Shown here in pieces: positions 37,088 to 56,272 of a stretch of DNA of 64,000 nucleotides. Origin of the DNA: Blautia sp. An81 (lineage in GTDB: Bacteria; Bacillota; Clostridia; Lachnospirales; Lachnospiraceae); assembly GCF_002161285.1 (NCBI RefSeq), contig NZ_NFHH01000011.1, forward strand, positions 1 through 64,000, in the 5' to 3' direction. Position numbers and translations under genes: made by a program. Every line of letters begins with the position of its first letter. The stretch's first letter is position 1. The notes under the pieces are model-generated. The model ran no database searches. It had not been told where the DNA came from and saw nothing but the letters and a program-made list of their open reading frames with translations.

Positions 37088-38005
37088 TTAATTCTTTTTT
37101 TTCCAGTAATCCGGGTTCATGGTAAACTTCATCACCAGTCGCCTGGGTAATTTTCGATAGTTTTTTCCCATTCTGTATCCCAGAAATTTAAAGGCGCTGC
37201 TGAAGACCAGCTGAGGGAAGAGCCAGGGTCTGCCTTTCTTTATAAGATAGAAGCAGGTACTTTTTACCAGGCGGATTCCCTCCCCCTCCGAAGGAACATC
37301 CTTGAATATCTCCGGATGATCTGCCTGGGATACTGCAAGGTCAAAGTTCCGCTTAAACTGCTGTATCCAGGTATAATTGTGTGAGTGGATCACCTGGGCA
37401 TCTGCGGCATAGAACACAGCATATCCTGCCTTTATCAGATTTCCGGCCATGATCATATCCTCGTTAAAAATCGTGGGAAATGTAAAACCACCCATTTTTT
37501 CATAAGCCTCTTTACGATATGCAGCGCACACATTAGAACAGAAAAAAGTTTTAATTCCCAGTATGGGAATGTCTTTTCTGGTCTTTCTCCTGCTTTTCTC
37601 AGGATAATTAAAAGAACGGGTATATCGCTCAATAAGCCTGCAGTCCTTATCTGGAAGCTGTCTGCCATAGACCGCCCCCACCTCAGGGTCTCTGAAAGGT
37701 TTGAGAAGATTCTCTATGGTACATGTATCTGCTGGTACCGCATCTTGCGTAAAATATATCAGAAATTCACTGTCTGCCATTTCCGCCGCCTGGGCTCTGG
37801 TTCTACCATGATCAAATTCTTCTTTAGAAATATGGATGACTTCTGCCTGCTCCATTCCTCGGAGCACAGAATCTTTCCAGAATTTCTTCTCTGTATTCAT
37901 AATAAGGATTTTATCCGGGGGGAGCGTCTGCTTCTTCAGACCTTCCATAAGTCTGAGAAATTTATCTCCCGGTTTATAGGTAGGGATAATTACTGTAACG
38001 CTCAT
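37088..38005 (-). CDS. GT2 glycosyltransferase (rhamnosyltransferase-like)
   Basis: 305 residues from ATG 38005, which has GAGGAGAAAAGAT; the frame runs on to 38092 without a better start. GT-A fold: SVTVIIPTYKPGDKFLRLME, the stretch DHGRTRAQAAEMADSEFLIY and the metal-binding region FTQDAVPADT, then FPTIFNEDMIMAGNLIKAGY. The HGRTRA...TQDA pattern is typical of the rhamnosyl-transferase-like branch of GT2. Last gene of the polysaccharide locus in the direction of transcription. Confidence 0.85.
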   Translation of the reverse strand: MSVTVIIPTYKPGDKFLRLMEGLKKQTLPPDKILIMNTEKKFWKDSVLRGMEQAEVIHISKEEFDHGRTRAQAAEMADSEFLIYFTQDAVPADTCTIENLLKPFRDPEVGAVYGRQLPDKDCRLIERYTRSFNYPEKSRRKTRKDIPILGIKTFFCSNVCAAYRKEAYEKMGGFTFPTIFNEDMIMAGNLIKAGYAVFYAADAQVIHSHNYTWIQQFKRNFDLAVSQADHPEIFKDVPSEGEGIRLVKSTCFYLIKKGRPWLFPQLVFSSAFKFLGYRMGKNYRKLPRRLVMKFTMNPDYWKKKN

Positions 38006-38103
38006 ATCTTTTCTCCTCTTTGTAGATTTCAGTAGCTTTTTGTGTACGAAAGAAAAGGAAGGGCCTTCCAGCACCTCCCTTTTCTCTCCCAAAAACTTAT
38101 TCC

Positions 38104-40904: not shown

Positions 40905-42773
40905 TTATTTATTTGTGGTGATCACGTAGGTCGGGACAACCTTCTGTACAGCTTCCTTAATCCGGGGGCTGTCCTCCCTGCTAAGCTTATCCAGAATTGC
41001 CAGCTGTTTCTTAAACTCTTCCTCATCAAATTCAATGGGCTTTCCGATATGAATGAGCTTGTTGTCTGTATCCTGGAGTCCCTCTTCGCTCATAAGCAGT
41101 TCTTCATACAGCTTTTCTCCCGGACGGAGACCTGTAAATTCAATTTTAATATCTTCCCCTACCTTATAGCCGGAAAGTTTGATCAGATTTGTGGCCAGAT
41201 CCAAAATTTTTACCGGTTTTCCCATATCCAGAACAAAGATTTCTCCTCCCTTGGCATAAGCACCTGCCTGCAGCACCAGGGAAACAGCTTCCGGAATGGT
41301 CATGAAATACCGGATGATATCCGGATGAGTAACCGTTACCGGCCCTCCTGCTGCTATCTGTTTTTTAAACAGAGGAATTACACTGCCGTTGCTTCCCAGC
41401 ACATTTCCAAAGCGTACCGCCACAAAATTGGTTTTTGAATGTCTCGCAAACATCTGAACGATCATCTCACACATCCGCTTAGAAGCACCCATGATGTTTG
41501 TGGGGTTCACAGCCTTGTCTGTAGAAATCAACACAAATTTCTCTGCCCCGTATTTGTCTGCCGCCTCTGCTGTCTTAAAGGTTCCGAACACATTGTTTTT
41601 GATTGCTTCATTGGGGCTGTCTTCCATAAGGGGAACATGTTTATGGGCTGCCGCATGATAGACAATGTTTGGCCGGTATTTATCAAAAATGTTATTCATT
41701 CTGTGGGTGTTTCTCACAGAACCGATCAGCACCTCCAGATTCAGCTCAGGAAATTTTCTTTTTAATTCCTGCTGAATCTCATAGGCATTATTTTCATAGA
41801 TGTCCAGGATGATCAGCTGTTTTGGATTATGAGCTGCAATCTGTCTGCACAGCTCGCTGCCGATAGAGCCGCCTCCTCCAGTTACCATTACGGTTTTATT
41901 CTGTACATATCCCATGATCTCATCCAGATTTACCTGAATGGGTTCCCTTCCAAGAAGATCCTCGATCTGGACTTCCCTCAGCTTAGATACGCTTACATCT
42001 CCATTGATGAATTGATAAATGCCTGGAATAATCCTTGTCTTACACCTGGTCTCTTTACAGATATCCAGTATCTCTTTCATCTTCACATTCCCGAGAGAAG
42101 GAATGGCCACAATAATCTCCTGAATATTATATTCCTCAACTTTATCGGGAATATCCTCTCTGGTACCTACGATAGGAACTCCTCTGAGATATTTTCCCTG
42201 TTTTGCCGGATTATCGTCAATGATACATTTTACTTTCAGGTTCAGATATCTGCTTTCCTCTGTTTCCTTTAAAATTGAACTTCCTGCAGCTCCTGCACCG
42301 ATAAGCATAACATTGACTCTTTTCTTTCCGCCCCCGGTAATGTCCGTCATCTTTTCGCTAAGGATATTTAAAATAACATAAGAAAAACGCACACAGCTGG
42401 TACCGATGACCATAGCAAAATAGTAAATCAGGTAGGAGGATCTGGGCAGTGTCAGTTTCAGCAGACATGCGCAGGTTACCTGTATTGCAGATGCTGCTGC
42501 ATTACCCAAGATAATATTGACCAGCTCACTGGAGCTGGCGTGTCGCCACACACTCCTGTACATTTTTGCGACAGCAAACACAATCAGGGTTATCATTGTA
42601 TTTGGCACTGTATAACGCAGAACCTGCTCCATATCCGAAACCGGAATACTGTTGAAGCTGAACTCATACCGGATAAAAAGCCCCAGAAAAGAAGCAATCT
42701 GTATAGTAAGAATGTCCAAAAGCATAAGGAGAAAAACCTTGCTTGACATAATTTGACCCTTTTTCCATTTCAT
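40905..42773 (-). CDS. Polysaccharide biosynthesis dehydratase, CapD/PglF type
   Basis: Membrane-bound nucleotide-sugar 4,6-dehydratase, probably acting on UDP-GlcNAc. 622 residues: four N-terminal spans, a first Rossmann domain (VMLIGAGAAGSSILKETEES), a second SDR-type domain with VMVTGGGGSIGSELCRQIAA, HAAAHKHVPLMEDSPNEAIK, STDKAVNPTNIMGASKR (the Tyr of classic SDR enzymes is replaced by Met, as usual in this subfamily) and FTGLRPGEKLYEELL. ATG 42773 with AAGGAAGGAATT. Its product would feed the glycosyltransferases of the locus. Confidence 0.93.
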   Translation of the reverse strand: MKWKKGQIMSSKVFLLMLLDILTIQIASFLGLFIRYEFSFNSIPVSDMEQVLRYTVPNTMITLIVFAVAKMYRSVWRHASSSELVNIILGNAAASAIQVTCACLLKLTLPRSSYLIYYFAMVIGTSCVRFSYVILNILSEKMTDITGGGKKRVNVMLIGAGAAGSSILKETEESRYLNLKVKCIIDDNPAKQGKYLRGVPIVGTREDIPDKVEEYNIQEIIVAIPSLGNVKMKEILDICKETRCKTRIIPGIYQFINGDVSVSKLREVQIEDLLGREPIQVNLDEIMGYVQNKTVMVTGGGGSIGSELCRQIAAHNPKQLIILDIYENNAYEIQQELKRKFPELNLEVLIGSVRNTHRMNNIFDKYRPNIVYHAAAHKHVPLMEDSPNEAIKNNVFGTFKTAEAADKYGAEKFVLISTDKAVNPTNIMGASKRMCEMIVQMFARHSKTNFVAVRFGNVLGSNGSVIPLFKKQIAAGGPVTVTHPDIIRYFMTIPEAVSLVLQAGAYAKGGEIFVLDMGKPVKILDLATNLIKLSGYKVGEDIKIEFTGLRPGEKLYEELLMSEEGLQDTDNKLIHIGKPIEFDEEEFKKQLAILDKLSREDSPRIKEAVQKVVPTYVITTNK

Positions 42774-42794: not shown

Positions 42795-43751
42795 TTACTT
42801 CATAAGAAATTTTCCCAGATTTCTGTATAGCTCCATCTGTATTTTCAGATACTGCAAAGGCGAATCCGCCCGGAATTTTTTTCTTCTGTTTTTTAAAGAA
42901 ATCGTGACCCCGTTTTTCAGCCCCGCCACATACTCTCTCCCAAAGCCCTTTACGGTAAAAAAAGCAGTTTTAACAGCAAAGCCCAGAAGGAGCAGCGGAG
43001 AATTCCAGATGATCTGGAGAAGGGGCATATTTTTATAAATAAGATACACATTGTTTCTGGAAGAGTACCTGACCTTAAACAGATTATATCTGGATCCAGT
43101 GGTTCCGCTTCCTACATGAAGGACTTTTGCTTTGGGACAGAACCAGTTTTCATAGCCCAGGAGTTTTCCTCTGTATCCTATATCCATATCTTCCAGATAG
43201 GCAAAATGCTCTTCGTCAAACAGCCCAGTCTTATCTAAAAGTTCCCGGCGGTAGACAGCCGCCCCTGCACAGGATGCAAAAATTTTCTTTTCCCTCTCAT
43301 AGGCTTTTTCCTGCTTACCTTTTCCATCTGCAAAAGCCCAGCCCAGGGCGCAGTAATAGTTTCCCGCATCATCAATCTTATCCTTATTCTTCATCTGGAG
43401 CAGTTTTCCCTGGCAGGAAAAAGCTCTGGGTTTTTCTTCGATTGCCCGGATCAGTTCCCCTACAAAGTCTTTATCTGCAATGGTGTCATTATTGAGGAGT
43501 ATCACATAGGGACTGGAGGAATTTCTGATCCCCTCATTCACTGCTCCACAAAATCCTGTATTTTCCTTCAAGGCTATCAGTCTCACCCAAGGATATGCTT
43601 TCTCCACATACTCCTGGCTTCCATCCTGGGAACCGTTGTCTATCAGCAGTACCTCAAAATCCCGGAAGCTCTGTACTTTCATAGCTTCCAGGCAGTCTTT
43701 TAAATATCTTTTCCCATTATAATTAGGGATTATCACCGAAACCTTACACAT
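42795..43751 (-). CDS. GT2 glycosyltransferase, single domain
   Basis: 318 residues from ATG 43751, with AAAGGTAGGAAC upstream; the frame extends to 43793 but would overlap the preceding gene. N-terminus CKVSVIIPNYNGKRYLKDCL, then LLIDNGSQDGSQEYV, the metal motif VILLNNDTIAD and the acceptor-side FDEEHFAYLEDMDIGYRGKL, the pattern of dTDP-rhamnose and related wall-polymer transferases. The C-terminus has an amphipathic or membrane helix region (LLQIIWNSPLLLLGFAVKTA). It follows the 608-residue GT2 with an 11-base gap. Confidence 0.88.
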   Translation of the reverse strand: MCKVSVIIPNYNGKRYLKDCLEAMKVQSFRDFEVLLIDNGSQDGSQEYVEKAYPWVRLIALKENTGFCGAVNEGIRNSSSPYVILLNNDTIADKDFVGELIRAIEEKPRAFSCQGKLLQMKNKDKIDDAGNYYCALGWAFADGKGKQEKAYEREKKIFASCAGAAVYRRELLDKTGLFDEEHFAYLEDMDIGYRGKLLGYENWFCPKAKVLHVGSGTTGSRYNLFKVRYSSRNNVYLIYKNMPLLQIIWNSPLLLLGFAVKTAFFTVKGFGREYVAGLKNGVTISLKNRRKKFRADSPLQYLKIQMELYRNLGKFLMK

Positions 43752-43762
43752 GTTCCTACCTT

Positions 43763-45589
43763 TCAGTCTTTTGGGCGCAGAGAGTAATTCCACTTGGCAA
43801 GAGAAAGATTTTTATTGTAATAAGGATCTCCCTCCTTTAAAAGTTTCTCCCATCTGCAGCGCATAAATTCTATTTCTGTCTGAAATCTGCGTATTTTCTC
43901 TTTATTGTCTTCTGCCCCCCGGCTTTTTGATTCGTAATGATATAATTCTACATAGGGGTCATATACTACCAGATATCCCAGTTCCCTTACCCGCAGACAA
44001 AGGTCTACATCATTAAAAGCCACACTCAGAGTTTCCTCAAATCCCTGAACTGCTTCAAACACCTGTCTTTTCATCATCATACAGGCTGCCGTCACTGCAC
44101 TGAGGTCTTGTATGATGGAGGCTTTATGCATATAGCCAGACCTCTCTCTTGGCATATCCACAAACATATGGCCGGCAATTCCTCCAATGCCTATTACTGT
44201 TCCGGCATGCTGAATAGTGTTATTTCCATAATACAGCTTTGCACCTACAACTCCGGTGTCTTCTCTCTGGCAGAATCCCAGCATTTCCTCTATCCAGTCG
44301 GAAGTAATCACCTCTGTGTCATTATTAAGGAAAAGAAGATATTCCCCTTTTGCCTTCGAAGCCGCATAATTATTGATAGCAGAATAATTAAATTCTTTCT
44401 TCCATCTGAGAAGCCGTATTTTGGGATTCTCAGACAGCTGTCTGTAATAATCAAAAATTTCCTGAGAGGTACTGTTATTCTCCACAATGAGAATTTCGTA
44501 ATTACTGTATATGCTCCTTCCTAATATAGAAGTTATACACTTTTCCAGATCCTCTCTGGCATCTTTATTGGGAATGATAATGGAAACAAGGGGAGTGCCG
44601 ATAACCGGATACTTCACTCTGTAAAATCCATAGTCCTTTGTCTGTGTCACAGTTCCTGTAAGGCCGCTTCTTTTTAAATTGTCTTCTATTGCCCTTTTTC
44701 CAGCCTCAAAAGCATATAGCTTACTCTCCGGATTATCCGCAGTGGAGGACTCATGAGTCCTCCAGTGATAAAGGATTTCCGGTATATGGCAGATTTTCTC
44801 TGCTTTCTCTGTACAGCGGAAAATAAAGTCGTAATCCTGAGCACCGTCGTAGTCTCGGCGGAATCCTCCTGTTTTCTCCAGAATACTCTTTTTTACGACA
44901 AAAAAATGACAAATATAATTATTGGATCTTAACAGATCAGGGCTGAAATCCGGCTTCAGGTGGGGCTGAAAATGCTCCAGTTCCTCTCCTCTTACCTTAT
45001 CCTCATCTGTATAGATAACCTCTGTATCCGGCTCTCTCTCCAGAGCGCTGGCAACTTCATACAAAGCGTTGGGTGCCAGCAGGTCATCATGATCCAGCAG
45101 TCCTACATAGTCCCCTGTAGTCATTGCCAGAGCTTCATTGGTATTTTCTGCAATCCCCTTATTCTCCTCCAGTTTTTTCCACCGGATTCTTTCATCTTTC
45201 CTGGAATATTCCCTTAAAATATATTCCATTGAGGCATCCTTGGGACTGGCATTTACAATACAAAGTTCCCAATTTTCATAGGTCTGTTCCAATACTGAGT
45301 CCATCATCTGACGCAGAAACTTTTCCGGAGTCTGATAAGCCGGTACAGCTATACTAATCTTAGGCGGATTTTTCCATTTTCTTTTTCTCTGTTTTTCCAG
45401 TTCTTCCGGGTCCGGTCTGTATTCCTCATACCAGGGACCATAGGGTATCTCCTCAGGCTCAAAACGTTCATGAAGTCTTATCCAGAATTCTTTAAAACCA
45501 AAATGTTTCAGATAACGAAACCCCTTCTGAATGGTATATGGCGAAAGCCTCCCTAAAATTCTCCCCCATTCTAATTTTCCAGTAGGCAT
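43763..45589 (-). CDS. Two-domain GT2 glycosyltransferase (608 residues)
   Basis: Two GT-A domains in one chain. Domain 1 (about 75-310): KISIAVPAYQTPEKFLRQMM, GLLDHDDLLAPNALYEVASA, VIYTDEDKV, and RRDYDGAQDYDFIFRCTEKA with YHWRTHESST. Domain 2 (about 330-600): LVSIIIPNKDAREDLEKCIT, LLFLNNDTEVI, GAKLYYGNNTIQHAGTVIGI and VAFNDVDLCLRVRELGY. The tail GDPYYNKNLSLAKWNYSLR nearly matches those of the 802- and 827-residue enzymes, so the three are paralogues. This one lacks the N-terminal beta modules. Related bifunctional proteins extend polymers with two linkages. Confidence 0.9.
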   Translation of the reverse strand: MPTGKLEWGRILGRLSPYTIQKGFRYLKHFGFKEFWIRLHERFEPEEIPYGPWYEEYRPDPEELEKQRKRKWKNPPKISIAVPAYQTPEKFLRQMMDSVLEQTYENWELCIVNASPKDASMEYILREYSRKDERIRWKKLEENKGIAENTNEALAMTTGDYVGLLDHDDLLAPNALYEVASALEREPDTEVIYTDEDKVRGEELEHFQPHLKPDFSPDLLRSNNYICHFFVVKKSILEKTGGFRRDYDGAQDYDFIFRCTEKAEKICHIPEILYHWRTHESSTADNPESKLYAFEAGKRAIEDNLKRSGLTGTVTQTKDYGFYRVKYPVIGTPLVSIIIPNKDAREDLEKCITSILGRSIYSNYEILIVENNSTSQEIFDYYRQLSENPKIRLLRWKKEFNYSAINNYAASKAKGEYLLFLNNDTEVITSDWIEEMLGFCQREDTGVVGAKLYYGNNTIQHAGTVIGIGGIAGHMFVDMPRERSGYMHKASIIQDLSAVTAACMMMKRQVFEAVQGFEETLSVAFNDVDLCLRVRELGYLVVYDPYVELYHYESKSRGAEDNKEKIRRFQTEIEFMRCRWEKLLKEGDPYYNKNLSLAKWNYSLRPKD

Positions 45590-45646: not shown

Positions 45647-45675
45647 TTTAAAGAAAACCTTTATTGTGCTATAAT
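45647..45675 (+). promoter_or_regulatory. Promoter of the D,D-carboxypeptidase gene
   Basis: TTTAAA (45647-45652) and TATAAT (45670-45675) with a 17-base spacer. The region 45590-45739 is a divergent promoter region shared with the GT2 gene on the other strand, and it holds no other gene. Confidence 0.7.
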
Positions 45676-45739
45676 GAGCGGGAACTGCCCTGACTGGGCC
45701 GCCTTTTCATATTTCATTTTATATAAAGGAGGAACTTTT

Positions 45740-46966
45740 GTGAAGAAAAATATATTGCTGAAGCCTCTTTGCTGTGTTCTGTCGGCTTTTATCCTTATGC
45801 TGAGCTCCTATTCTCCGGTGGAAGCAGCAGAATTTCCCGCAAGCTGGCCCCAATCCCCTGAAATCGCCGAAGAAACCGGTGTTCTGATGGAAGCCTCTAC
45901 AGGACAGATTCTATTTGATAAAGGAATGGACGAAATCCGTTATCCTGCCAGTACCACCAAGATCATGACGACTCTGCTGATCCTTGAAAATATAGAAGAC
46001 CTTAGCCAGACCGTAACCTTTACTGATGTGATCACTCCTGATCTGGAGCCCGGAAACTCTACGATAAACGCCCAGGTCGGAGAACAGCTTACAGTAGAGC
46101 AATGTCTCTACGCCATTATGCTGGCCTCTGCTAACGAGGTTTGCACCCAAATGGCCGTTTATGTGGCCGGATCTGTTGAAAATTTTGTAAGCATGATGAA
46201 CCAGCGAGCTTCTCAGCTGGGCTGTCAGAATACCCACTTTGTAAATGCCAATGGCCTGCCTGACCCCAATCACTATACTACTGCCCATGACTTAGCCTTG
46301 ATCCTGGCTGCAGCAATCCAAAACGAAGATTTCTGCCGTATCTCTGGCTCTGCCACTTACACGATTCCTGCCACCAACATGACTTCATCTCCCAGGAATC
46401 TTGAAAATTCAAATGCCCTTATCAACGATAGCGAATATCATTACGACGGTGTCATAGCGGGCAAAACAGGTCATACAGAGGCAGCCAAAAATACTCTGGT
46501 CACCGCCGCCGCCCGTGACGGCATGACTCTTGTATGTGTAGTTCTCCGTTCCGATGGTGAAAACCGTTTTATAGATACTGTCAGTCTTTTCAACTATGGA
46601 TTTGAAAATTTCCACCTTTCTCCAGTTTACTGGCTGAACAGCGAGGAACCTGCAGGATATGTGGTCCTGCCTAAAGGAGTGGAGAGCAATGTGCTCACTG
46701 TCAAAGACAGCGACAGTGGAGATACAAGGACACGTACTTATTCCTATCAGGGGGTAGATCTGTACAGTGCTCAGATCAGCCTTCCGGTAAGTTTTGAGCA
46801 GGAAGCAGATATCCCGTCCTCCTCCTTCTATCAAATCCGTGGATGGGATTATGTTCTGCCTGGCATGGGGGTAATTTTACTTATTCTATGTATATCAGAA
46901 ATTATAATTCTTATTTCCTTCGCTTCTAGGAAAAAGCCAAAAATTAAGAAAAAAAGAAGCGCATAA
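45740..46966 (+). CDS. dacF: D-alanyl-D-alanine carboxypeptidase (PBP5/DacF type)
   Basis: Trims the terminal D-Ala of peptidoglycan stem peptides outside the cell. 408 residues from GTG 45740, with AAGGAGGAACTTTT directly upstream. Signal peptide (about 1-30, ending VEAA), S11 peptidase motifs: Ser71-x-x-Lys74 in PASTTKIM, SAN in MLASANEVC and KTG in IAGKTGHTEAAK. A beta domain follows, and a C-terminal membrane anchor (VLPGMGVILLILCISEIIIL) with a basic end. It is on the opposite strand to the polysaccharide genes on both sides. Confidence 0.94.
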   Translation: MKKNILLKPLCCVLSAFILMLSSYSPVEAAEFPASWPQSPEIAEETGVLMEASTGQILFDKGMDEIRYPASTTKIMTTLLILENIEDLSQTVTFTDVITPDLEPGNSTINAQVGEQLTVEQCLYAIMLASANEVCTQMAVYVAGSVENFVSMMNQRASQLGCQNTHFVNANGLPDPNHYTTAHDLALILAAAIQNEDFCRISGSATYTIPATNMTSSPRNLENSNALINDSEYHYDGVIAGKTGHTEAAKNTLVTAAARDGMTLVCVVLRSDGENRFIDTVSLFNYGFENFHLSPVYWLNSEEPAGYVVLPKGVESNVLTVKDSDSGDTRTRTYSYQGVDLYSAQISLPVSFEQEADIPSSSFYQIRGWDYVLPGMGVILLILCISEIIILISFASRKKPKIKKKRSA

Positions 46967-47052: not shown

Positions 47053-49461
47053 CTATTCATTTCTTTTTCTCAGAGAGCAGTCACTTCTGGCCAGACTCAG
47101 ATTTGGATTGTAATACGGATCTCCGTTTTTCAAGATTTTTCCCCAGCGTTTTTTGAATAGTTTTACCTCTTCTGAAAATCGCTTCTTATTTTCCGCATTT
47201 TTGTCAGAACCTCTGGTCAGCGATTCATAGTGATACATTTCCACGTAGGCATTATACACTACCAGCTTTCCAAGTTCTCTCATCCTCAGACAGTAATCAA
47301 TATCGTTAAAGGCAACCTGGAAATTCTCATCTAGCCCTTGAAGTCTAAAATACAGAGATTTCTTCGTCATCATACAGGCTGCTGTCACTGCACTTAAATC
47401 CTGAGTCGTTTGTGTACGCCCTGCATACACAAACTGGTCCTTTGGAAAATTATAAAAGATATGTCCTGCTGTCCTTGACGGGCCCATACCTATGATAACA
47501 CCGGCATGCTGGATTTTATCATTAGGATATAAAAGTTTTGCTCCTACAATACCTACATCCTCTCTCTGGCAATAACTGAGCATTTCTTCCATCCAGTTCT
47601 CTGTTATCACTTCTATGTCATTATTCAAAAGCAGCAAATATTCTCCTCTGGCTGATTCTGCTGCAAAGTTATTAATTCCTGAGTAGTTGAATTCTCCTTT
47701 CCATTCCAGAACTCTGATATTTTCATATTGTTCCTCTATCTGACGGTAATAATGGAAAATTTCTTCGCTTGTACTGTTATTCTCTACTATAATAATTTCA
47801 AAATTCCTGTATGTGGATTTCTTATAAATAGAAGAAACACATCTCTCCAAATCTTCCTTATGATCTTTGTTAGGAATAATAATAGAGATCAGGGGAGTTC
47901 CTTTAACAGTCAGTTCTGTTCTGTATCTTCCCCAATTTTCTGTCATACTCACCTTCCCGGGGATTCCCACCCGGTCATAATGAGCCTGTACAGCTGCTCT
48001 CCCCGCTTCATAAGCATACATCTTACTTTCTGGATTGCCAGCAGTAGAAGCCGGATGGTTTCTCCAATGGTACAGTATTTTGGGAACATGTCGAATATTA
48101 CGGGCCTGCTCACAACAGCGCAAGATAAAATCATAATCCTGAGCGCCATCATATTCTTTACGAAGCATTCCCACTTGCTCCAGTATCTCTCTTTTCACAA
48201 CAAAAATGTGGCAAATGTAATTATTACACCTAAGCATATCCAGATTAAAGTCCGGCTTAAAATGAGGATCAAAATAACGTTTCCCATCCATAGTCACCTT
48301 ATCTTCATCTGTATATACCACATCAGTCCCCGGATTCTCATTAATCTCTTTCACAATTTCATATAATGCATTCGGTGCTAAAGTATCATCATGGTCTGAA
48401 AACATGATGAAGTCTCCCTCTGCCAGTTCTATAGCTCTATTCGTATTTTCAGAGATCCCATCATTTTTCTCCAAAAGCCTATAGCATATGCGGCTGTCTT
48501 CCTTATAATTTTCTCGAATATAAGTGCCGACCTTTTCGTTGTCACTTCCATCAGCCAGACAAAGTTGAAAATTTTTGTAGGTCTGCGCCTGAACAGACTC
48601 TATCAGTTCTTTCAGATACTGAGTAGGCGTATTATAAAGCGGAATCACAATACTGATCAATGGCTCATAGGCAAAAACTTTTTTCCTTTGCTTTTCCAGC
48701 TCTTCTTCTCCTGCCATATTTTCCGGATACCATTTTGTATATGGATACGGACGATTCTTATATTCCTCTGCTTTTTTTACCAGTTTAAGAGCAAACCCAC
48801 CGGCGCCATGAAGTCTGAAATAACGAATTCCTTTTTGGTAGTAGGTTCCTATTCGTTCTCCCACCATTTTTCGCTTTAACAGGCTGATATAGCGGATAGC
48901 TCTGCAGCCCTGGGAAGAAAAGACCAGTCGTACTCCGCTTTCCTTTTCAAATGAAAACTCTAAAAAGAATCCGCTTTCTTTCCCTATATCAATCTCCTGA
49001 TACTGCTGCTGCACATCAGAACGGTTCACTCTCTCAATAGAAAATTCTATCCTCTCCCTGTTCTGGTTCTCAACATAGATCTCCAAAGGATGATGGTAAA
49101 CTGCCCACCCACTGATCATACATTTATGATTTTCAAAATCCACATCTACATAATCAATAAAATATTGGGGCATATTTTGTTTTTTCGCAATCTTCTCTGC
49201 TTTTTCTGAGAACCAGAGAACTCTTTTTTCCTCTTTTTTCCCATAAACATAAAGCTTTTTATACTCTTTTATATTCACGGGAATCTTTATATAGATTTCA
49301 GCCTTTCCATCTGCTTCTGTAAACTCTACTTCACTTACCCTTTGACGGTCCAGAAAAACCTCCGGTCTGTATTCCTGATTCCATGTTCCCTGGAGCAGAT
49401 ATTTATCTTTCTCTTTAAGGCTGAAACGTTCCTTTTCTACTTCCATTAACTCACGTTTCAT
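47053..49461 (-). CDS. Two-domain GT2 glycosyltransferase with N-terminal beta module (802 residues)
   Basis: Residues 1-230 are a beta-rich region holding one copy of a module (CMISGWAVYHHPLEIYVENQ, then RVNRSDVQQQY and KESGFFLEFSF). Two GT-A domains follow: LISIVIPLYNTPTQYLKELI with FSDHDDTLAPNALYE and VVYTDEDKV; then LISIIIPNKDHKEDLERCVS with LLLLNNDIEVI and VAFNDIDYCLRMRELGKL. The tail GDPYYNPNLSLARSDCSLR is nearly shared with the neighbours. It is the last gene of the wzm-started operon and ends at a bidirectional terminator. Confidence 0.9.
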   Translation of the reverse strand: MKRELMEVEKERFSLKEKDKYLLQGTWNQEYRPEVFLDRQRVSEVEFTEADGKAEIYIKIPVNIKEYKKLYVYGKKEEKRVLWFSEKAEKIAKKQNMPQYFIDYVDVDFENHKCMISGWAVYHHPLEIYVENQNRERIEFSIERVNRSDVQQQYQEIDIGKESGFFLEFSFEKESGVRLVFSSQGCRAIRYISLLKRKMVGERIGTYYQKGIRYFRLHGAGGFALKLVKKAEEYKNRPYPYTKWYPENMAGEEELEKQRKKVFAYEPLISIVIPLYNTPTQYLKELIESVQAQTYKNFQLCLADGSDNEKVGTYIRENYKEDSRICYRLLEKNDGISENTNRAIELAEGDFIMFSDHDDTLAPNALYEIVKEINENPGTDVVYTDEDKVTMDGKRYFDPHFKPDFNLDMLRCNNYICHIFVVKREILEQVGMLRKEYDGAQDYDFILRCCEQARNIRHVPKILYHWRNHPASTAGNPESKMYAYEAGRAAVQAHYDRVGIPGKVSMTENWGRYRTELTVKGTPLISIIIPNKDHKEDLERCVSSIYKKSTYRNFEIIIVENNSTSEEIFHYYRQIEEQYENIRVLEWKGEFNYSGINNFAAESARGEYLLLLNNDIEVITENWMEEMLSYCQREDVGIVGAKLLYPNDKIQHAGVIIGMGPSRTAGHIFYNFPKDQFVYAGRTQTTQDLSAVTAACMMTKKSLYFRLQGLDENFQVAFNDIDYCLRMRELGKLVVYNAYVEMYHYESLTRGSDKNAENKKRFSEEVKLFKKRWGKILKNGDPYYNPNLSLARSDCSLRKRNE

Positions 49462-49478: not shown

Positions 49479-51962
49479 TTACCACTTTAAAGTACAGTTG
49501 GAGTCTTCCAGAGTCAGATTTGGATTATAATAGGGATCTCCCTTATCCAAAATAGATTTCCAGCGTTTTCTAAACAGTCCTGCTTCGCGATTAAATCTTT
49601 CTTTCTTCTCCGGAGTATCTTCCAGTCCTCTGGATCTGGATTCATAGTGATATAGCTCTACAAACCCATGAAATACGATTGTTTTTCCCAGTTCTCGGAC
49701 TCTCAGACAATAATCCACATCATTAAACGCCACTTCAAAATTTTCATCAAAACCGCCGATATCCTCATGGACGCTGCGTTTTACCATCATACAGGCTGCA
49801 GTTACCGCACTTATATCCTGGGTAGAGTTTGCTCTTCCTCCATAAGTAAACTGCTTTCTGTCTACTCCGTAGAAAACATGACCTGCCGCATGATCTGCAC
49901 CCATTCCGATTACAACGCCGGCATGCTGTACCGTATCATTGGGATAATATAGTTTTGCACCTACAATCCCCACCTCTTCTCTCTGGCAATATCCCAGCAT
50001 CTCTTCCATCCACTCCGGCGTGATCACTTCAATATCATTATTCAAAAATATGAAAAAATCTCCTTGGGCATATTTCACACCGAAATTATTTATGGCAGCA
50101 TAATTAAAATGCTCTTTCCAATATAATACTTTTAGATTTTTTCTCGTCTGCTGTATCTGCTCATAGTATGCAAAAGTTTCCTGTTGGCTGCTGTTATTTT
50201 CCACTATAAGAATCTCGAAATTTTTATACGTACTTATTTCATAAATGGACTTTATACATCTGTCCAGGTCATCAATGTGATCCTTATTTGGTATGATAAT
50301 AGAAACCAGAGGCGTCCCTTTATGTTTGAGTTTGGAGCGGTACCTTCCCCAATAAGGAGTCATAGTCACTTCTGCATCCTGCTGGATTCTCTTATAATGG
50401 GCCTCCACTGCCTTTCTTCCATTTTCATAGGCATACATTTTACTGGCGGGATTTCCAGCCGTAGAATTAGGATGTGATCTCCAATGGTACAAAACTTTCG
50501 GAATATGATAAATACAGTTTGCCTTCTCGCAACATCTTAGAATAAAATCAAAATCCTGTGCTCCATCATACTCTTTCCTGAATTCGCCTATCTGATCCAC
50601 TATTTTTTTTGAAACTACAAAAATATGACAGATATAATTATTGCTCCTCAATAAATTCCAGTTAAAGTCCGGCTTAAAATGTGGATCAAAATATTCCTTT
50701 CCATCCATCGTCACCTTGTCTTCATCTGTATAAACGATATCGGGATGGCCGCCAGTATTTAAGGCCTTTACGATCTCATATAATGCGTTTACTTCCAGCA
50801 CATCATCATGGTCGCTGAGCATAATATATTCACCATCTGCCAATTTCAGAGCTGCATTGGTATTCTCCGAAATCCCTTCATTTTTTTCTAATCTTTTATA
50901 GACAATTCTTTTCTCTTTTTTGTACTTTTCCTGCAAAAATTTTTCAATCCGGTCATTTGGGCTTCCATCTGCAAAACAAAGCTGCCAGTTTGAATAGGTC
51001 TGTCCCACCACAGAACGTAATAGGTCGTCAAAGTAATTTAAAGGGGTGTTGTAAAGAGGTATCACAATACTGATTAAAGGTTCATAAGGAAAGCGAGTCT
51101 GTCTCTGCCTTTTTAACTCCTGCTTACTGGTCTTGTGCAGTTTTGCCCAATATCCATAACCCTGATTATTGGGATTCAGATTAATAGAAAGCTGTTTTTT
51201 AAATTCTTTCATTCCATGGGCACGTATAAACTGGTAATTACTCCTTAATTTCTTTGGCCCCAGCTGCTCGTAATATTTTCCCACCTTACTGTTACTGAAA
51301 TATAGCTTTTTGGCTGAAAGCACATATCTTGCTCTGGAGTCTTTACTTTTAAATGTCACCGCCACATTTCCATTTTCTAGACACTTTTTAGGAAATTTTA
51401 TAGTAAAACCGCTTTCCAATTCTGAATCTACAGAAAAGATGTCGTTAACGTCCGGTCTTATTTCTCTTTCACATGTAAATTCAATCTCATTGTCCTGGCT
51501 ATCCAGCACAAAAACAGGGCAGCGCTCTTTCTTGTAAAAGGCCCAGCCTTTTATTAGGACATAATCTTCCAGGATACATGCACTGTCTACATGATACTTT
51601 ATAAGATTTTTTATATACCTCTGCTTAATATCCTTCCATTCTCGCTGGAATACTTTTACGGTCTCCACAGAATCTGAAAATTTCACTTCTATTTCGCCCT
51701 TTTTTTCCCACAGCTTAGAAATATCGTCTATATAAATAATAAAGCCTAATTTTAATTCACTGTCTTCTATTTTTAAATATTTCTGAACATCTGGACGGTT
51801 TATCCAGGAGATTCTGTATGGAATATCCTGTCCACTGCTATCCTTAACCTCCGCAGTAATGGCGTTTCCCTTCTTGCTCCATATCCATCCTTTAATTTCA
51901 AATCTATTTTTTCCAGAACGGTTTACATCAGCTTCGTCGATGCACCAGCGCATAGTACTCAT
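49479..51962 (-). CDS. Two-domain GT2 glycosyltransferase with two N-terminal beta modules (827 residues)
   Basis: Residues 1-240 hold two copies of the beta module: FEIKGWIWSKKGNAITAEVK with NRPDVQKYL and LKLGFIIYI, then VLIKGWAFYKKERCPVFVLD with IRPDVNDIF and LESGFTIKF. The two GT-A domains are like those of the 802-residue neighbour (LSDHDDVLEVNALYEIVKAL, IVYTDEDKV; FIFLNNDIEVI, VAFNDVDYCLRVRELGK). Many stretches are identical between the two, so they arose by tandem duplication. It follows the kinase-like gene by 8 bases in the same operon. Confidence 0.9.
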   Translation of the reverse strand: MSTMRWCIDEADVNRSGKNRFEIKGWIWSKKGNAITAEVKDSSGQDIPYRISWINRPDVQKYLKIEDSELKLGFIIYIDDISKLWEKKGEIEVKFSDSVETVKVFQREWKDIKQRYIKNLIKYHVDSACILEDYVLIKGWAFYKKERCPVFVLDSQDNEIEFTCEREIRPDVNDIFSVDSELESGFTIKFPKKCLENGNVAVTFKSKDSRARYVLSAKKLYFSNSKVGKYYEQLGPKKLRSNYQFIRAHGMKEFKKQLSINLNPNNQGYGYWAKLHKTSKQELKRQRQTRFPYEPLISIVIPLYNTPLNYFDDLLRSVVGQTYSNWQLCFADGSPNDRIEKFLQEKYKKEKRIVYKRLEKNEGISENTNAALKLADGEYIMLSDHDDVLEVNALYEIVKALNTGGHPDIVYTDEDKVTMDGKEYFDPHFKPDFNWNLLRSNNYICHIFVVSKKIVDQIGEFRKEYDGAQDFDFILRCCEKANCIYHIPKVLYHWRSHPNSTAGNPASKMYAYENGRKAVEAHYKRIQQDAEVTMTPYWGRYRSKLKHKGTPLVSIIIPNKDHIDDLDRCIKSIYEISTYKNFEILIVENNSSQQETFAYYEQIQQTRKNLKVLYWKEHFNYAAINNFGVKYAQGDFFIFLNNDIEVITPEWMEEMLGYCQREEVGIVGAKLYYPNDTVQHAGVVIGMGADHAAGHVFYGVDRKQFTYGGRANSTQDISAVTAACMMVKRSVHEDIGGFDENFEVAFNDVDYCLRVRELGKTIVFHGFVELYHYESRSRGLEDTPEKKERFNREAGLFRKRWKSILDKGDPYYNPNLTLEDSNCTLKW

Positions 51963-51970
51963 TATAATTT

Positions 51971-53251
51971 CTAGTCCCCTTTTACCATCTTTTTATATTT
52001 CTTGTACGTTTTCCAGACCTTAGTATTTTCCATATCCTGAATTTTCTGTTCTTTTTCTTTCAGTTGATATGTCAGTTCCAATATTTCTTTCTTCTGGCGG
52101 AGAATTTGTTCTTTTTCTTTTATGATTTCCTGTGCATAGCTCTCCAGTCCATAGTTCTTATAAACCTCAATAAGTAACTTTTCTGTATCTTTAGGTACCA
52201 CTTCTATATATATCTGAGGATCCTGGTTAATAAATAGCCATTCATTTTCAGATTTTTGAATTCCATTGGTTTTTATCACACATTTTTCTCCGGATTTCCA
52301 CTCCAGCTTTTTGATAATAACGACTCCCAGGGCTTCACCTGGGTCCAGCCTGATAAAAACTGTCCCAGTTTCTATTTTCAGCTCTGCTCTTACTCTTCCC
52401 TGCTCCATTGGAAAATAAAAAGACTCTTCTTCTCTGGCAATCCCATCCTTTGACATAAATATCTGGAGCTTTTCCTCTGGTATCTGACTGTTTAAAAGCT
52501 GCGGCAGTGTTACCACACCCGGAGTGATCCTAGGATATAAGGCACGAAGGGGTACATAGTTTCCCAATATATATTTCTGGAAGTTCTCTTCCATACCCTG
52601 AAACATTTCCTGCTCTTTTTTTCCAATTCTCATTGTTTCATATAGATTCCAAGATGCTATCTGATTCCTAAAAGCATTACTTTTTTCATAATAATGCAAA
52701 ATCCGATATATCACATACTGTATAGGAATCGGAAAAGAAAAAGTCCATTCAAAATCAATCAGCGTCCATTTATCTCCCTGGACGATTACATTTCCTAAAA
52801 CCATATCGATATCTGTCACTTCAGCGGAGAAAAATTCTTTCGACTCCTGGATTTTTCCAAACACCTGCTGAAATTCTTCTGTGATCACAAATTTCGTCTG
52901 AGCTGTTTTCTCAATGATACTAATATATTCTTGTAATATCGTTTTAAACTCTTCTATTTTCCTTTGTTTCAAAAGGCCATCTAAAATTTCCTGGAGAGTA
53001 TTTCCACTCAGATATTCTAAAATCAGCTGTTCCTCTTCCAGATTACACTGGTTTATCTGAATCTTCGTGTTTTGAAAAGTATTCTCTAATTTTTGAAATA
53101 TATTAAATATGCTCTCTACATGTTTCTTGCCTTGGGGATAGCATGCCTTTTTACTGACACCTTTTTTTCCAGATTCCTCCCATATATCCGTTCTGATCGC
53201 AAATCTGGGATCTCTTTCATTTGAATATTTGGTAAACAAGATTTTTCTCAT
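51971..53251 (-). CDS. Kinase-like protein with C-terminal coiled coil (WbdD kinase/ruler-like)
   Basis: 426 residues, no annotated family that I can name with certainty. Residues 145-170 read TDIDMVLGNVIVQGDKWTLI then DFEW: the layout of APH-type kinases, with Asp149 as catalytic base, Asn154 and Asp166 as metal ligands, though the usual His two before the Asp is Asp147. The N-terminus FTKYSNERDPRFAIRTDI is typical of the segment that follows the methyltransferase in fused proteins. Residues about 372-415 are a charged heptad-like helix (IIKEKEQILRQKKEILELTY, LKEKEQKIQDMEN), a likely coiled coil, and a basic end. It starts 1 base after the methyltransferase stop. Confidence 0.65.
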   Translation of the reverse strand: MRKILFTKYSNERDPRFAIRTDIWEESGKKGVSKKACYPQGKKHVESIFNIFQKLENTFQNTKIQINQCNLEEEQLILEYLSGNTLQEILDGLLKQRKIEEFKTILQEYISIIEKTAQTKFVITEEFQQVFGKIQESKEFFSAEVTDIDMVLGNVIVQGDKWTLIDFEWTFSFPIPIQYVIYRILHYYEKSNAFRNQIASWNLYETMRIGKKEQEMFQGMEENFQKYILGNYVPLRALYPRITPGVVTLPQLLNSQIPEEKLQIFMSKDGIAREEESFYFPMEQGRVRAELKIETGTVFIRLDPGEALGVVIIKKLEWKSGEKCVIKTNGIQKSENEWLFINQDPQIYIEVVPKDTEKLLIEVYKNYGLESYAQEIIKEKEQILRQKKEILELTYQLKEKEQKIQDMENTKVWKTYKKYKKMVKGD

Positions 53252-53252
53252 A

Positions 53253-54167
53253 TTATCCCCTCTCCAACAATATCAAAAATGAATTAGAATATACAGGAAA
53301 CATTTCATCCTCAATCAGGCTGTCATATACTTTTCCCTCATCAAACAGTTCTATTTTTTTTCTATCAAAATTATAAGAATTTAAATTCAACTCGCCTTTT
53401 CTGGGTAAATATTTATCAGAATATATAGACAGCGGAAACTTATAATCTGGATATGGATAATAAAATTCTGCTTTCAAACCAGTCTCTTGGATCATCTTTT
53501 CCCATTCTTTTTTAGAAAAAGTCCTGACACCTTTCGTAGTATGATATCCCTCGAGTCCTTCAAAATATCTTCCCACATGGTCCTCTGTGCAGCCCGCCCA
53601 GTATTTTAGTCCCAGACGGTTCTCAATCGCTACCACAATTTTCCCTGTTGGCACCAAATGTCCCTTTATACTCTCCAACATACGGATATAGGGATTTTCT
53701 CCCTGTATATATCCCTGAGAATATTCAAAGACTCCGATTAACGTAATATAATCATATGTTGAATCTAAGTTCGGCTCGATATCCTGAAAGTTCCCCATAA
53801 TTATTTTTATATTATCATGCTCTTTATTTCTATATGCATTGATCAGGCTTCTCTTTCTGGACAGTTCTATACAGTCCACCTCACCTGCTTTTCTTGCTAA
53901 AGCTCCTGTTATAGCTCCACACCCTGCCCCCACTTCTAAGACTTTCTCTTCCTTTGTGATCGGTAGCCAATCTATAATGTTCTGTCTTATATTAGAAAAG
54001 TGGTACATAACAGGCCAGCTGTTTTCTCTGGCAATAACCTGATTCAATTCCTCTTCTGTATGTTTCTGGGCAATCGTTAATAGTTTCTCTTCAATCTCCC
54101 CGTCACTATATAAATCTTTACCGCTATAATAGGTATCATCTAATTTCACTTTTCCTATTTTTTCCAC
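53253..54167 (-). CDS. SAM-dependent methyltransferase of the polysaccharide locus (WbdD methyltransferase-like)
   Basis: 304 residues from GTG 54167, with GGAGATATAAG before it. Class I methyltransferase: motif I KVLEVGAGCGAITGALARKA (about 76-95), acidic motif II in VDCIELSRKR, then ITLIGVFEYSQ and VAIENRLGLKYWAGCTEDHV. The end (EDEMFPVYSNSFLILLERG) is the usual hinge to the kinase part in fused homologues. It lies between wzt and the kinase-like gene with gaps of 12 and 1 bases. It probably methylates the non-reducing end sugar or a phosphate on it. Confidence 0.8.
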   Translation of the reverse strand: MEKIGKVKLDDTYYSGKDLYSDGEIEEKLLTIAQKHTEEELNQVIARENSWPVMYHFSNIRQNIIDWLPITKEEKVLEVGAGCGAITGALARKAGEVDCIELSRKRSLINAYRNKEHDNIKIIMGNFQDIEPNLDSTYDYITLIGVFEYSQGYIQGENPYIRMLESIKGHLVPTGKIVVAIENRLGLKYWAGCTEDHVGRYFEGLEGYHTTKGVRTFSKKEWEKMIQETGLKAEFYYPYPDYKFPLSIYSDKYLPRKGELNLNSYNFDRKKIELFDEGKVYDSLIEDEMFPVYSNSFLILLERG

Positions 54168-54179
54168 CTTATATCTCCT

Positions 54180-55445
54180 TCAGCTTACAGTTATCTTAGA
54201 ATTCATATCATAAAATCCAACCGTATTTTTTGATGATATAACTGTAATTCCACACACGTCATATAGACGATGAAACACTTCAAATTCTCCATTTACATAC
54301 CCAGTGCACCCCAGGGAAAGCAAGTACTCTCCCCCCTGCAGATTCATTTCCTGTGTAAAGGTAATCTCACAAACTTGTCCCTTCTCTTTTGGACTGATAT
54401 CTGCTTTTTCAAAAAGTGTGTTTGTTCCTGTTATTTCTGTTCCCTGGAGATTTTTTATACTATATGCAAAAATAGGTTCTTGGATAGTTTCCTGAAATTT
54501 CACCTTCATTTTTATTGAAAATCCAGTTCCCTTCTCTATGCTATTTGCAGGAATCCCTTTTTGGTCCATAATAATAAAGTCTATTATATTAGCACGCCCA
54601 TTTCCATATTCTAGCACATTGGGATTTGTTTCAAAAGGCCGGTCCCATTTACCGTCTGTGGGAACAGATTCTAAAGGATTTTCATCTTTCGATGCATCTT
54701 CCGCATCCTCTAATCCTACCAGAACTTTTTTATAAAGGTTCACCATTTCCTTAGGTTTTCCCTCTGCCATCTTCTCCCCTTTGTTCAGCAGAACAACCCT
54801 GTCGCAATATTTACTGATGCTCCCCAGGTCATGGCTGACAAAAAGAATCGTCTTTCCCTGTTTTTTAAATTCTTCAAATTTTCTATAGCATTTAGCCTGA
54901 AAAAAGACATCCCCAACCGACAGTGCCTCGTCCACGATCAGGATTTCCGGTTCTATGTTTATTGCCACAGCAAAAGCAAGACGCACAAACATACCGCTGG
55001 AATAAGTTTTCACGGGCTGGTATACAAAATCTCCAATATCTGCAAATTTCAGGATATCATCCATTTTCCTGTCTATTTCTTCCCTGGAAAAGCCTATCAT
55101 GGTTCCATTCAGATAAATATTTTCTATACCCGAATATTCCATGTTGAAGCCAGCCCCTAATTCTAACAGAGCAGAAATCCTTCCATTCACCTGCACTTCT
55201 CCTCCACTGGGATTCAATACTCCGGTGATAATCTTTAATATAGTAGATTTTCCGGAGCCATTTGTTCCGATAATCCCTACGGTTTCTCCTCTGCTCACAG
55301 TAAAAGAAACATCTCGAAGAGCATAATGCTCTTTATATCTTTTTTTTCTGGACAAACCAAGTGATTCTTTTAACCGGTCTATAGGTTTATCATATAATCG
55401 ATATATTTTGTTTAAATGATTCACTGCTATTGCAACTTCTGACAT
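54180..55445 (-). CDS. wzt: Polysaccharide ABC exporter ATPase Wzt with carbohydrate-binding C-terminal domain
   Basis: ATPase of an ABC-2 exporter for undecaprenyl-linked polysaccharide or teichoic acid. 421 residues. Residues 1-245 are the ATPase: Walker A IIGTNGSGKST, Q-loop, signature VKTYSSGMFVRLAFA, Walker B EILIVDEALSVGD and the switch LFVSHDLGSI. Residues about 265-421 are a Wzt-type beta-sandwich domain (YGNGRANIIDFIIMDQKGIP, FSIKMKVKF, EYLLSLGCTGY), which in E. coli O8/O9a binds the capped end of the chain. ATG 55445 with AAGGAGATAAGAT. Confidence 0.92.
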   Translation of the reverse strand: MSEVAIAVNHLNKIYRLYDKPIDRLKESLGLSRKKRYKEHYALRDVSFTVSRGETVGIIGTNGSGKSTILKIITGVLNPSGGEVQVNGRISALLELGAGFNMEYSGIENIYLNGTMIGFSREEIDRKMDDILKFADIGDFVYQPVKTYSSGMFVRLAFAVAINIEPEILIVDEALSVGDVFFQAKCYRKFEEFKKQGKTILFVSHDLGSISKYCDRVVLLNKGEKMAEGKPKEMVNLYKKVLVGLEDAEDASKDENPLESVPTDGKWDRPFETNPNVLEYGNGRANIIDFIIMDQKGIPANSIEKGTGFSIKMKVKFQETIQEPIFAYSIKNLQGTEITGTNTLFEKADISPKEKGQVCEITFTQEMNLQGGEYLLSLGCTGYVNGEFEVFHRLYDVCGITVISSKNTVGFYDMNSKITVS

Positions 55446-55456
55446 ATCTTATCTCC

Positions 55457-56272
55457 TTAAAGTACATCTGCGAAATGCGGCTTAAGCCTTTTAAAAATAA
55501 CTGTTCCTAATATAAAAATAATAATTGTCAGGCACCAGAAATAAATCCCCCATTTCCAATGGGCAGTCAGCCAGATTCTACCCAGCATAGAATCTCTGTA
55601 TCCAGATACAATATAATACATTGGATTTAATTTGAACACTTTCATCAATATAGGATATCCGTTCAGCATATTTAAATCCCACATAATAGGCGTCATCCAC
55701 ACTCCCACCTGAAGAATAATACTGATAATCTGAGTCAAATCCCTGAAAAAAACTACCACAGCACTGGTAATATAAACAAGTGCCAGAGAAAAGACAAATG
55801 TACAGAATGAATAGTATATCAGCTGTATCGTATGCACTGATGGGGTATAACCATAGAAAGAGCTGAGCAGCAATGCAAATACCACAAAAAAGCAATGTAC
55901 AAACATTGCCGAAATCACCTTGACCATAGGTAATATGCTAATCTTAAATACTACTTTTTTCACTAGGTAATTGTATTCTAAAAGAGCATTTGTGCCCCCA
56001 TTTAATGCATCCTGAAAGAAAAACCATGGCACAATTCCCGATACCAGATACAGCACAAAGGGGTAGTCATCTGCATTTCCGGCCCTTAAGCCTACACTAA
56101 ATACAAACCAGTAAACTAAAATTGTAACAATTGGCTGAACGAAGGCCCAAACAATTCCCAGATAAGAACCGGCATACTTTGTTTTAAAATCATTTTTTGC
56201 CAGATTAAATATCAAGTGTCTGCTATGGTAAAGCTCTACTGGAAGTTCAAATACTTTTTTTAGCTTAGTCAT
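55457..56272 (-). CDS. wzm: Polysaccharide ABC exporter permease Wzm
   Basis: Membrane half of the exporter. 271 residues, six spans: FKTKYAGSYLGIVWAFVQPI is the family's signature near the N-terminus, followed by YLVSGIVPWFFFQDALNGGT, FSLALVYITSAVVVFFRDLT and PIMWDLNMLNGYP, with LNPMYYIVSGYRD near the end. First gene of the operon wzm-wzt-methyltransferase-kinase-GT2-GT2. AGAGGTAGAATAA precedes the ATG. Confidence 0.93.
   Translation of the reverse strand: MTKLKKVFELPVELYHSRHLIFNLAKNDFKTKYAGSYLGIVWAFVQPIVTILVYWFVFSVGLRAGNADDYPFVLYLVSGIVPWFFFQDALNGGTNALLEYNYLVKKVVFKISILPMVKVISAMFVHCFFVVFALLLSSFYGYTPSVHTIQLIYYSFCTFVFSLALVYITSAVVVFFRDLTQIISIILQVGVWMTPIMWDLNMLNGYPILMKVFKLNPMYYIVSGYRDSMLGRIWLTAHWKWGIYFWCLTIIIFILGTVIFKRLKPHFADVL

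Follow-up and report, generated by a model that had tools for sequence, protein, structure and literature searches.

The window analysed here, the whole 64,000-nucleotide stretch at positions 1 to 64,000 of contig NZ_NFHH01000011.1 of Blautia sp. An81, carries on its minus strand the genes wzm and wzt of an ATP-binding cassette (ABC) exporter, followed by genes for a methyltransferase (MT) and a 426-residue protein that we call KIN. By sequence comparison, KIN appears to be an APH-like kinase, and the nearest known enzyme to the pair appears to be ORF6 of Klebsiella pneumoniae O7 (ORF6-O7) rather than WbdD, with which a first-pass annotation of this DNA had compared it. We think it likely that the two genes jointly encode a chain terminator of the ORF6-O7 type. 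This reading draws on gene order, on conserved kinase and S-adenosylmethionine (SAM)-site residues, on sequence similarity to a protein organised like ORF6-O7, and on the joint occurrence of KIN and the C-terminal domain of Wzt (Wzt_C) across genomes. The genes and the parts of their products are as follows.

55457–56272, minus strand: wzm, ABC-2 permease (PF01061, 8.4e-16; 30% identity to E. coli O9 Wzm)
54180–55445, minus strand: wzt, ATPase with C-terminal carbohydrate-binding domain (PF00005, 9.8e-24; PF14524, 1.4e-42)
54204–54614, minus strand: Wzt_C domain, residues 278–414 (PF14524; best PDB match 2r5o, E 8.3e-7)
53253–54167, minus strand: MT, putative SAM-dependent methyltransferase of O7 terminator type (class I SAM fold; 33% identity to the MT-KIN-GT-GT protein of Pseudomonas asturiensis; GT, glycosyltransferase)
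51971–53251, minus strand: KIN, putative sugar kinase, beta-sandwich and helix protein (profiles, conserved residues, model)
52547–53251, minus strand: predicted kinase domain of KIN, residues 1–235, with K34, D149, N154 and D166 (invariant residues, APH profile match)
52205–52573, minus strand: beta-sandwich-like stretch of KIN, residues ~227–349, candidate immunoglobulin (Ig)-like carbohydrate-binding module (sequence profile)
52028–52144, minus strand: C-terminal helix of KIN, residues 370–408, candidate short coiled coil (heptad window, model)
51980–52021, minus strand: predicted basic C-terminal helix of KIN, residues 411–424, net charge +7 (model)

In the list of open reading frames the order is wzm, wzt, MT, KIN, with gaps of 11, 12 and 1 bases, and KIN is followed after 8 bases by a gene for a double GT2-type glycosyltransferase. 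The tight operon of wzm, wzt with an extended C-terminal domain, methyltransferase and kinase-like protein described at first pass is borne out by these gaps of 1–12 bases, as is the single base between the last two genes. Across 430 columns Wzt has 39% identity with its counterpart from E. coli O9, and its Wzt_C domain is where recognition of the capped chain end would be expected.

KIN appears related to APH-like kinases

KIN alone gave no meaningful match to Pfam and no match to NCBIfam. We searched 299 genomes of the window's family, representing 298 genera, with the KIN protein, and 154 of them matched, the window's own included, which is about half. Loci were taken from 60 of the 153 other matching genomes, 40 near the top of the list and 20 further down, so that the sample is biased towards strong matches. 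A scan of genome contigs gave one further relative, L036. The window, L036 and the 60 loci together provided 62 aligned kinase regions.

Nine residues are invariant in this alignment: R13, T21, K34, D149, N154, D166, E168, W169 and R183. The aspartate and asparagine residues that had been picked out as APH-like (D149, N154 and D166) are therefore real features of the family. With K34 they follow the order found in APH-like motifs: N-lobe lysine, catalytic aspartate, asparagine and metal aspartate. When the KIN profile was aligned by hhalign with 24 APH-family sequences from related genomes, the match had a probability of 91% (E 1.3e-7, 198 columns, 11% identity), and K34, D149, N154 and D166 fell on APH positions. 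Controls with a reversed profile and eight column shuffles all gave 0.4% or less. Taken singly, 3 of the 62 KIN sequences matched Pfam APH, weakly (best E 0.0019). Searches of PDB sequences with the KIN protein and with two profiles found no kinase at a significant E-value, the best being JAK1 at 0.037.

An AlphaFold model was made from a two-row alignment. In this low-confidence model the N-lobe contains strands at 3–10, 19–26 and 29–36, a helix at 39–58 and strands at 68–72 and 75–80. The order of elements, E-E-E-H-E-E-H-H (E, strand; H, helix), is kinase-like, with block values of the predicted local distance difference test (pLDDT) of 62–74 for residues 21–110. The top Foldseek match of the model was APH(2'')-IIa (probability 0.97, E 0.025), and among the 50 matches listed 45 were kinases and five were ribosome recycling factor. 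The likeness of the model to kinases is suggestive only. The profiles support a kinase at residues 1–200, where one had been expected; the model, with C-lobe pLDDT below 50, does not decide the matter.

Comparison with ORF6 of Klebsiella O7

ORF6-O7 is described as an N-terminal methyltransferase, an unannotated 223-residue kinase domain, an Ig-like module, a coiled coil and two GT2 rhamnosyltransferases (PMC11231755). According to the same source it acts on O3 of the terminal rhamnose, by phosphorylation followed by methylation, the D441A mutant gives no product, and its authors judge the kinase to be quite different from that of WbdD. The orthologues that they name are from alpha- and gammaproteobacteria, cyanobacteria and a methanogen, and the word Gram-positive is absent from the main text.

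The comparison was made through a protein of the same layout in place of the ORF6-O7 sequence itself. A tblastn search of plasmids with a fused relative matched two records, from P. asturiensis and Citrobacter braakii; the same search with KIN alone gave no match. The P. asturiensis protein (P0002) has 1457 residues in the order MT-KIN-GT-GT, which is the ORF6 layout. It has Y28, Y66, G91, G93, E112 and Y158 at the same numbers as the published SAM-site residues of ORF6-O7, and its catalytic aspartate is D443, against D441. Because of these six identical positions and the near-identical position of the aspartate, we take P0002 to be an ORF6-O7 orthologue.

The window MT is 33% identical to P0002 over 293 columns (E 7e-45; E-values against P0002 and WbdD by protein or hmmsearch comparison refer to a set of 12 proteins). 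It keeps the motifs YSDG, YH and ExGxGCG, an acidic loop and GVFEY. The KIN profile matched P0002 with an hhalign probability of 94.9% (E 4.6e-8) and an hmmsearch best-domain E of 5e-8. The catalytic D, N and D were aligned, and D149 of KIN thereby falls on D443 of P0002, the equivalent of D441 in ORF6-O7. The three double GT2-type glycosyltransferases of the cluster, GT1, GT2 and GT3, are 39%, 41% and 44% identical to the GT part of P0002 (E 7e-146 for GT3), and the window Wzt is 39% identical to the Wzt of the P. asturiensis set.

The window and ORF6-O7 share the order methyltransferase, APH-like kinase of non-WbdD type and double GT2, the window having a candidate sandwich or Ig-like module and a predicted helix before the double GT2, with Wzm/Wzt adjacent and with SAM-site motifs and catalytic aspartate kept, as tested through P0002. 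ORF6-O7 is one protein, whereas MT, KIN and GT are separate genes in the window, so that by sequence the window looks like an O7-type machine cut into three gene kinds: MT, kinase-sandwich-helix and GT-GT. In further contrast to ORF6-O7, the similarity of the KIN kinase is detected by profile only, the helix is short, the cluster contains a wall-attachment gene of the LytR-CpsA-Psr (LCP) type, and the window's genome has no Omp85 match.

On the second plasmid record, C. braakii pF217-3 (L098:7923-9872), the genes wzm, wzt and rfbABCD adjoin one for an MT-kinase-like protein of 649 residues. The plasmid is typed as conjugative. FEREW replaces the IDxEW of the relatives, and the kinase of this protein may be altered.

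Comparison with WbdD

At first pass the locus had been read as a split WbdD-like system. If it were a true split WbdD, MT and KIN would belong to the enzyme family of O9a WbdD, would carry out the same kind of chemistry on a sugar of their own, and would use the coil as a ruler. The order methyltransferase, kinase, helix beside wzm/wzt is the same, and the identities of Wzt (39%) and Wzm (30%) to the O9 proteins also fit. The spacing D-x4-N-x(11-12)-D is similar, with D149/N154/D166 here and D351/N356/D369 in WbdD as published (PMC3482155). The MT profile scored WbdD at E 0.009, a match at the level of the SAM fold.

The kinase, however, gave no such match. Against WbdD of E. coli HS O9 (L097) the KIN profile had an hhalign probability of 1% and an hmmsearch best-domain E of 4, and we rejected kinship with WbdD for this domain. 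As the template was a single sequence, a remote relationship within the kinase fold may still exist. A fused MT-KIN profile matched only the SAM-fold stretch of WbdD (80 columns, probability 75%). Neither window protein matched WbdD by blastp at E 0.01, and neither of the two profiles searched against the PDB had WbdD among its matches at the thresholds used. None of the window GTs matched WbdA at E 0.01; their match is to the GT part of the O7-type protein. Membership of the WbdD family is therefore already disfavoured by sequence, and we regard it as very improbable.

What stands of the first-pass reading is a methyltransferase and a kinase beside a Wzt with a C-terminal domain of cap-reading type; the kinship with WbdD is not supported. 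WbdD of E. coli O9a and K. pneumoniae O3 (PMC3482155), with methyltransferase, kinase and coiled coil beside wzm and a Wzt with a C-terminal domain, is a functional analogy. It differs in having a kinase unrelated by sequence and a methyltransferase alike only at SAM-fold level, and in combining methyltransferase, kinase and coil in one chain where the window has two genes. A WbdD-like terminator has also been described in Citrobacter youngae (PMC11127046).

Gene arrangement varies among relatives

The split layout pointed out at first pass is not special: the 62 loci comprise 27 with MT-KIN fused, 13 with KIN-GT, six with MT-KIN-GT and 16 split. MT is fused to KIN in 33 and a GT is fused in 19 (13 KIN-GT and six MT-KIN-GT). 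Two loci scored as split, L092 and L048, are long enough for KIN-GT and were relabelled as such for the tree. An assembly error that split the window genes was considered and thought unlikely. By a rough measure that starts at the stop of MT and ends where the kinase match begins, the distance from MT to KIN is −16 to 20 bases in the other split loci and 2 in the window.

A tree of the 62 kinase regions and the P. asturiensis row was built by a quick method. Parsimony gave 18 changes between fused and separate MT, 14 for GT and 29 for all four states. The four arrangements are hardly clustered on the tree, the 29 changes comparing with a mean of 31.1 for shuffled labels and a value as low in 39 of 200 shuffles. 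The minimum changes forced by starred branches were two for MT-KIN, four for KIN-GT and five for MT-KIN-GT. As 38 of the 60 inner branches are open, these counts are only a sign of repeated fusion.

Coupling to the Wzt C-terminal domain

Homologues found mainly away from wzm/wzt would have refuted the first-pass reading, but they do not lie so. MT is present in all 62 loci, Wzt_C in 60, the window included, and Wzm was detected in 55. Among the 299 family genomes, 147 have both KIN and Wzt_C, seven KIN only, 32 Wzt_C only and 113 neither (E 0.001 for both), a co-occurrence with a Fisher p of 6e-43, which ignores relatedness. Wzt_C is missing from two loci: L094 lies where its contig ends, and L069 showed no transporter gene in the 8.5 kb upstream, although its genome has Wzt_C on another contig. 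Five of the seven KIN-only genomes were examined (G010 and G271 were left out); they gave L125, L126, two contigs that are too short, and G279, which is the genome of L094.

In a wider sample of the phylum the KIN profile matched 12 of 398 genomes, eight of them outside the family. In three of these eight (L114, L118 and L119) MT and KIN are accompanied by wzm and Wzt_C. L116 does have an exporter, but no C domain was detected in it. The contig of L121 is short and carries MT and KIN, and L120, which matches weakly, lacks MT; the other two, L115 and L117, are discussed below. Viral contigs gave 94 pattern matches, none of them a relative.

The company that MT and KIN keep bears on two other explanations. 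In one, KIN phosphorylates while MT acts elsewhere, or the phosphate stays unmethylated or cyclises, leaving a phosphate or cyclic phosphate cap such as that of the Clostridioides difficile Ox247 S-layer glycan. In its favour, a clostridial glycan exported by an ABC transporter is reported to end in 2,3-cyclophospho-rhamnose, with speculation on a role like that of the O9a phosphate (PMC6254364), and phosphorylation alone ends the O9a chain (PMC3482155). Against it stands the constant pairing of the two: all 62 loci with KIN also have MT, and in 33 they are fused, a pattern that speaks for action of both on a single chain end. We consider this explanation unlikely.

In the other, MT and KIN decorate internal sugars with methyl phosphate or with separate groups and have no part in termination. 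The loci L126, L115 and L122, with no Wzt_C exporter in the stretch fetched, fit such a role, and several relatives have no coil. The tight coupling to Wzt_C, the GT fusions in 19 of the 62 loci and the published function of ORF6-O7 all point away from it, and internal decoration is to our minds as improbable as that first alternative. Termination by the MT-KIN pair is the reading that we prefer.

Several observations nevertheless weigh against that preferred reading. For the kinase assignment, the APH alignment has 11% identity, the 24 APH rows were selected partly by the presence of the kinase motif, the AlphaFold model is poor (mean pLDDT 48.7), and it had no Foldseek match at E 0.001. For the link to ORF6-O7, KIN and P0002 do not match by blastp but only by profile, and the comparison runs through an uncharacterised Pseudomonas protein. 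For the coupling, relatedness among genomes inflates the Fisher p value, and 32 of the 299 genomes have Wzt_C but no KIN match. G028, a genome of the same genus in this sample, has neither, and the locus therefore varies within the genus. L125 has wzm and a Wzt-like ATPase without the C-terminal domain. No Wzt_C exporter was seen in stretches of about 20 kb that carry the MT-KIN pairs or fusions L126:9210-10898 (G188), L115:8604-10351 (G496) and L122:8302-10695 (G207), nor in the stretch of L117, which like L115 lies outside the family. L126 is a capsule-type locus among WbsX, Caps_synth and NKWYS genes, and L122, the second locus of one family genome, lacks wzt beside its MT-KIN. The pairs in L126, L115, L117, L122 and L125 show that MT and KIN are not bound to this export route, and glycans of different origin may also be its substrates. 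Over all these loci the link between MT and KIN is stricter than that of either one to the exporter. For length control, a crude heptad score found a coil-like tail in 22 of the 62 loci, a weak one in 35 and none in five.

In L117:9237-10901 (G613) a 555-residue MT-KIN protein is encoded beside SUF iron-sulfur genes and a TonB-dependent receptor. The setting is an odd one and hints at a member of the same phylum that has an outer membrane.

The C-terminal part of KIN

Between the kinase and the helix, KIN contains the beta-sandwich-like stretch (residues ~227–349), which was absent from the first-pass annotation and is present in 49 of the 62 KIN open reading frames. Its profile matched residues 556–636 of the P. 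asturiensis protein at E 6e-4 before that row joined the profile. Strands are predicted here in the KIN model, with block pLDDT of 50 or less.

The charged heptad helix noted earlier at the C terminus is present. Its best 28-residue heptad window is at residues 380–407; when this tail was shuffled 300 times, about 2.7% of the shuffles did as well. The model has a single helix at 370–408 (block pLDDT 47 at its start and 59–78 from residue 381). At 370–415, where a coiled coil had been proposed, the predicted helix and the heptad window make a short coil a candidate. Extended, the 39 helical residues would span about 6 nm by arithmetic. The proposal that polymer length is measured by this element keeps its helix, but since many relatives have no convincing coil the ruler idea is weak for the KIN family, and length ruling by so short a helix is the weakest part of the scheme.

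An ENTKxWKxY-type motif follows the helix in seven of the 62 open reading frames, those of the window (residues 409–426), L037, L050, L052, L077, L078 and L087. The basic tail that carries it is possibly a membrane or partner contact.

Other genes of the cluster

The remaining genes of the cluster on the minus strand are the following.

49479–51962, minus strand: GT1, double GT2-type glycosyltransferase, candidate polymerase (PF00535, 1.4e-47, two stretches)
47053–49461, minus strand: GT2, double GT2-type glycosyltransferase (PF00535, 3.2e-46, two stretches)
43763–45589, minus strand: GT3, double GT2-type glycosyltransferase (PF00535, 2.3e-50, two stretches)
42795–43793, minus strand: single GT2 glycosyltransferase (PF00535, 9.9e-30)
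40905–42773, minus strand: nucleotide-sugar epimerase/dehydratase (PF02719, 8.4e-125)
39403–40800, minus strand: initiating lipid-linked sugar transferase, Bac_transf (PF02397, 2.4e-74)
38104–39384, minus strand: LCP protein, likely attaches the polymer to the wall (PF03816, 2.7e-30)
37088–38092, minus strand: single GT2 glycosyltransferase (PF00535, 7.7e-16)

A D,D-carboxypeptidase gene (PF00768) on the plus strand at 45674–46966 interrupts the cluster between GT2 and GT3. The window's genome also has rmlB, for dTDP-rhamnose synthesis, with a score above the curated cut-off. That the host lacks an outer membrane, as had been supposed, agrees with the result of an Omp85 search, which was negative in this one genome and positive in 7 of 14 genomes in a control search.

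Proposed mechanism and relation to known systems

According to work on O9a (PMC3482155) and O7 (PMC11231755), the chain stops growing once its last sugar is phosphorylated, the phosphate receives the methyl group, and the end so modified is required for recognition by the carbohydrate-binding part of the transporter and for export. In the window, GT1–GT3 would extend, at the inner face of the membrane, a chain that is lipid-linked and probably contains rhamnose. KIN, as an APH-like sugar kinase, would phosphorylate the last sugar, and MT would methylate that terminal phosphate, after which no further sugar could be added. The C-terminal domain of Wzt would recognise the capped end, Wzm/Wzt would export the chain, and the LCP protein of the same cluster would then join it to the wall. 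The MT-KIN pair most likely caps a rhamnose-containing wall polysaccharide before export; we infer its activity, the methyl phosphate cap, the sugar, the wall attachment and any length measuring by the C-terminal helix from the features set out above.

Capping of an ABC-exported Gram-positive glycan is already a known idea. WsaE of Geobacillus stearothermophilus is described as a three-domain protein, a methyltransferase fused to two rhamnosyltransferases, that adds a 2-O-methyl cap to a Wzm/Wzt-exported rhamnan, the methylated end being proposed to stop growth (PMC2943079). Compared by description and not by sequence, it differs from the window in its cap and in having no kinase. The SLCT-11 (Ox247) S-layer glycan of C. 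difficile is clostridial, ABC-exported and rhamnose-rich, and ends in 2,3-cyclophospho-rhamnose (PMC6254364); the words kinase and methyltransferase are absent from the main text of that paper, which assigns no such enzyme to the cap. It differs, again by description, in being an S-layer glycan with a cyclic phosphate. We found no report of a methyltransferase-kinase terminator in Gram-positive bacteria in the open-licence literature, with subscription journals and preprints mostly outside this search. The mechanism itself is known, whereas host, wall setting and gene layout are new. What is new is the O7-type terminator as a common and rearranged part of ABC-exported polysaccharide loci in a probably Gram-positive family.

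Rhamnose-rich polymers of related gut bacteria, such as the glucorhamnan of R. gnavus, are reported to be immune-active (PMC12413058), and an end cap can escape notice in complex nuclear magnetic resonance spectra (PMC11127046). The analysis offers a likely function for a kind of protein that Pfam hardly recognises and for which the window protein has no NCBIfam match, and points to an enzyme type that might make the phosphate cap reported for the C. difficile S-layer glycan. MT and KIN are a testable enzyme pair for how the wall polysaccharides of such Firmicutes stop growing and are chosen for export. We incline, by a small balance, to the view that in a large share of one Gram-positive family, probably the Lachnospiraceae, an O7-type kinase and methyltransferase seal the non-reducing end of a wall polysaccharide with methyl phosphate, and that Wzt reads this end before export. 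If so, bacteria without an outer membrane would routinely cap their wall polymers during assembly, in the manner known from O-antigens, and the modules for capping would have been freely fused and split during evolution.

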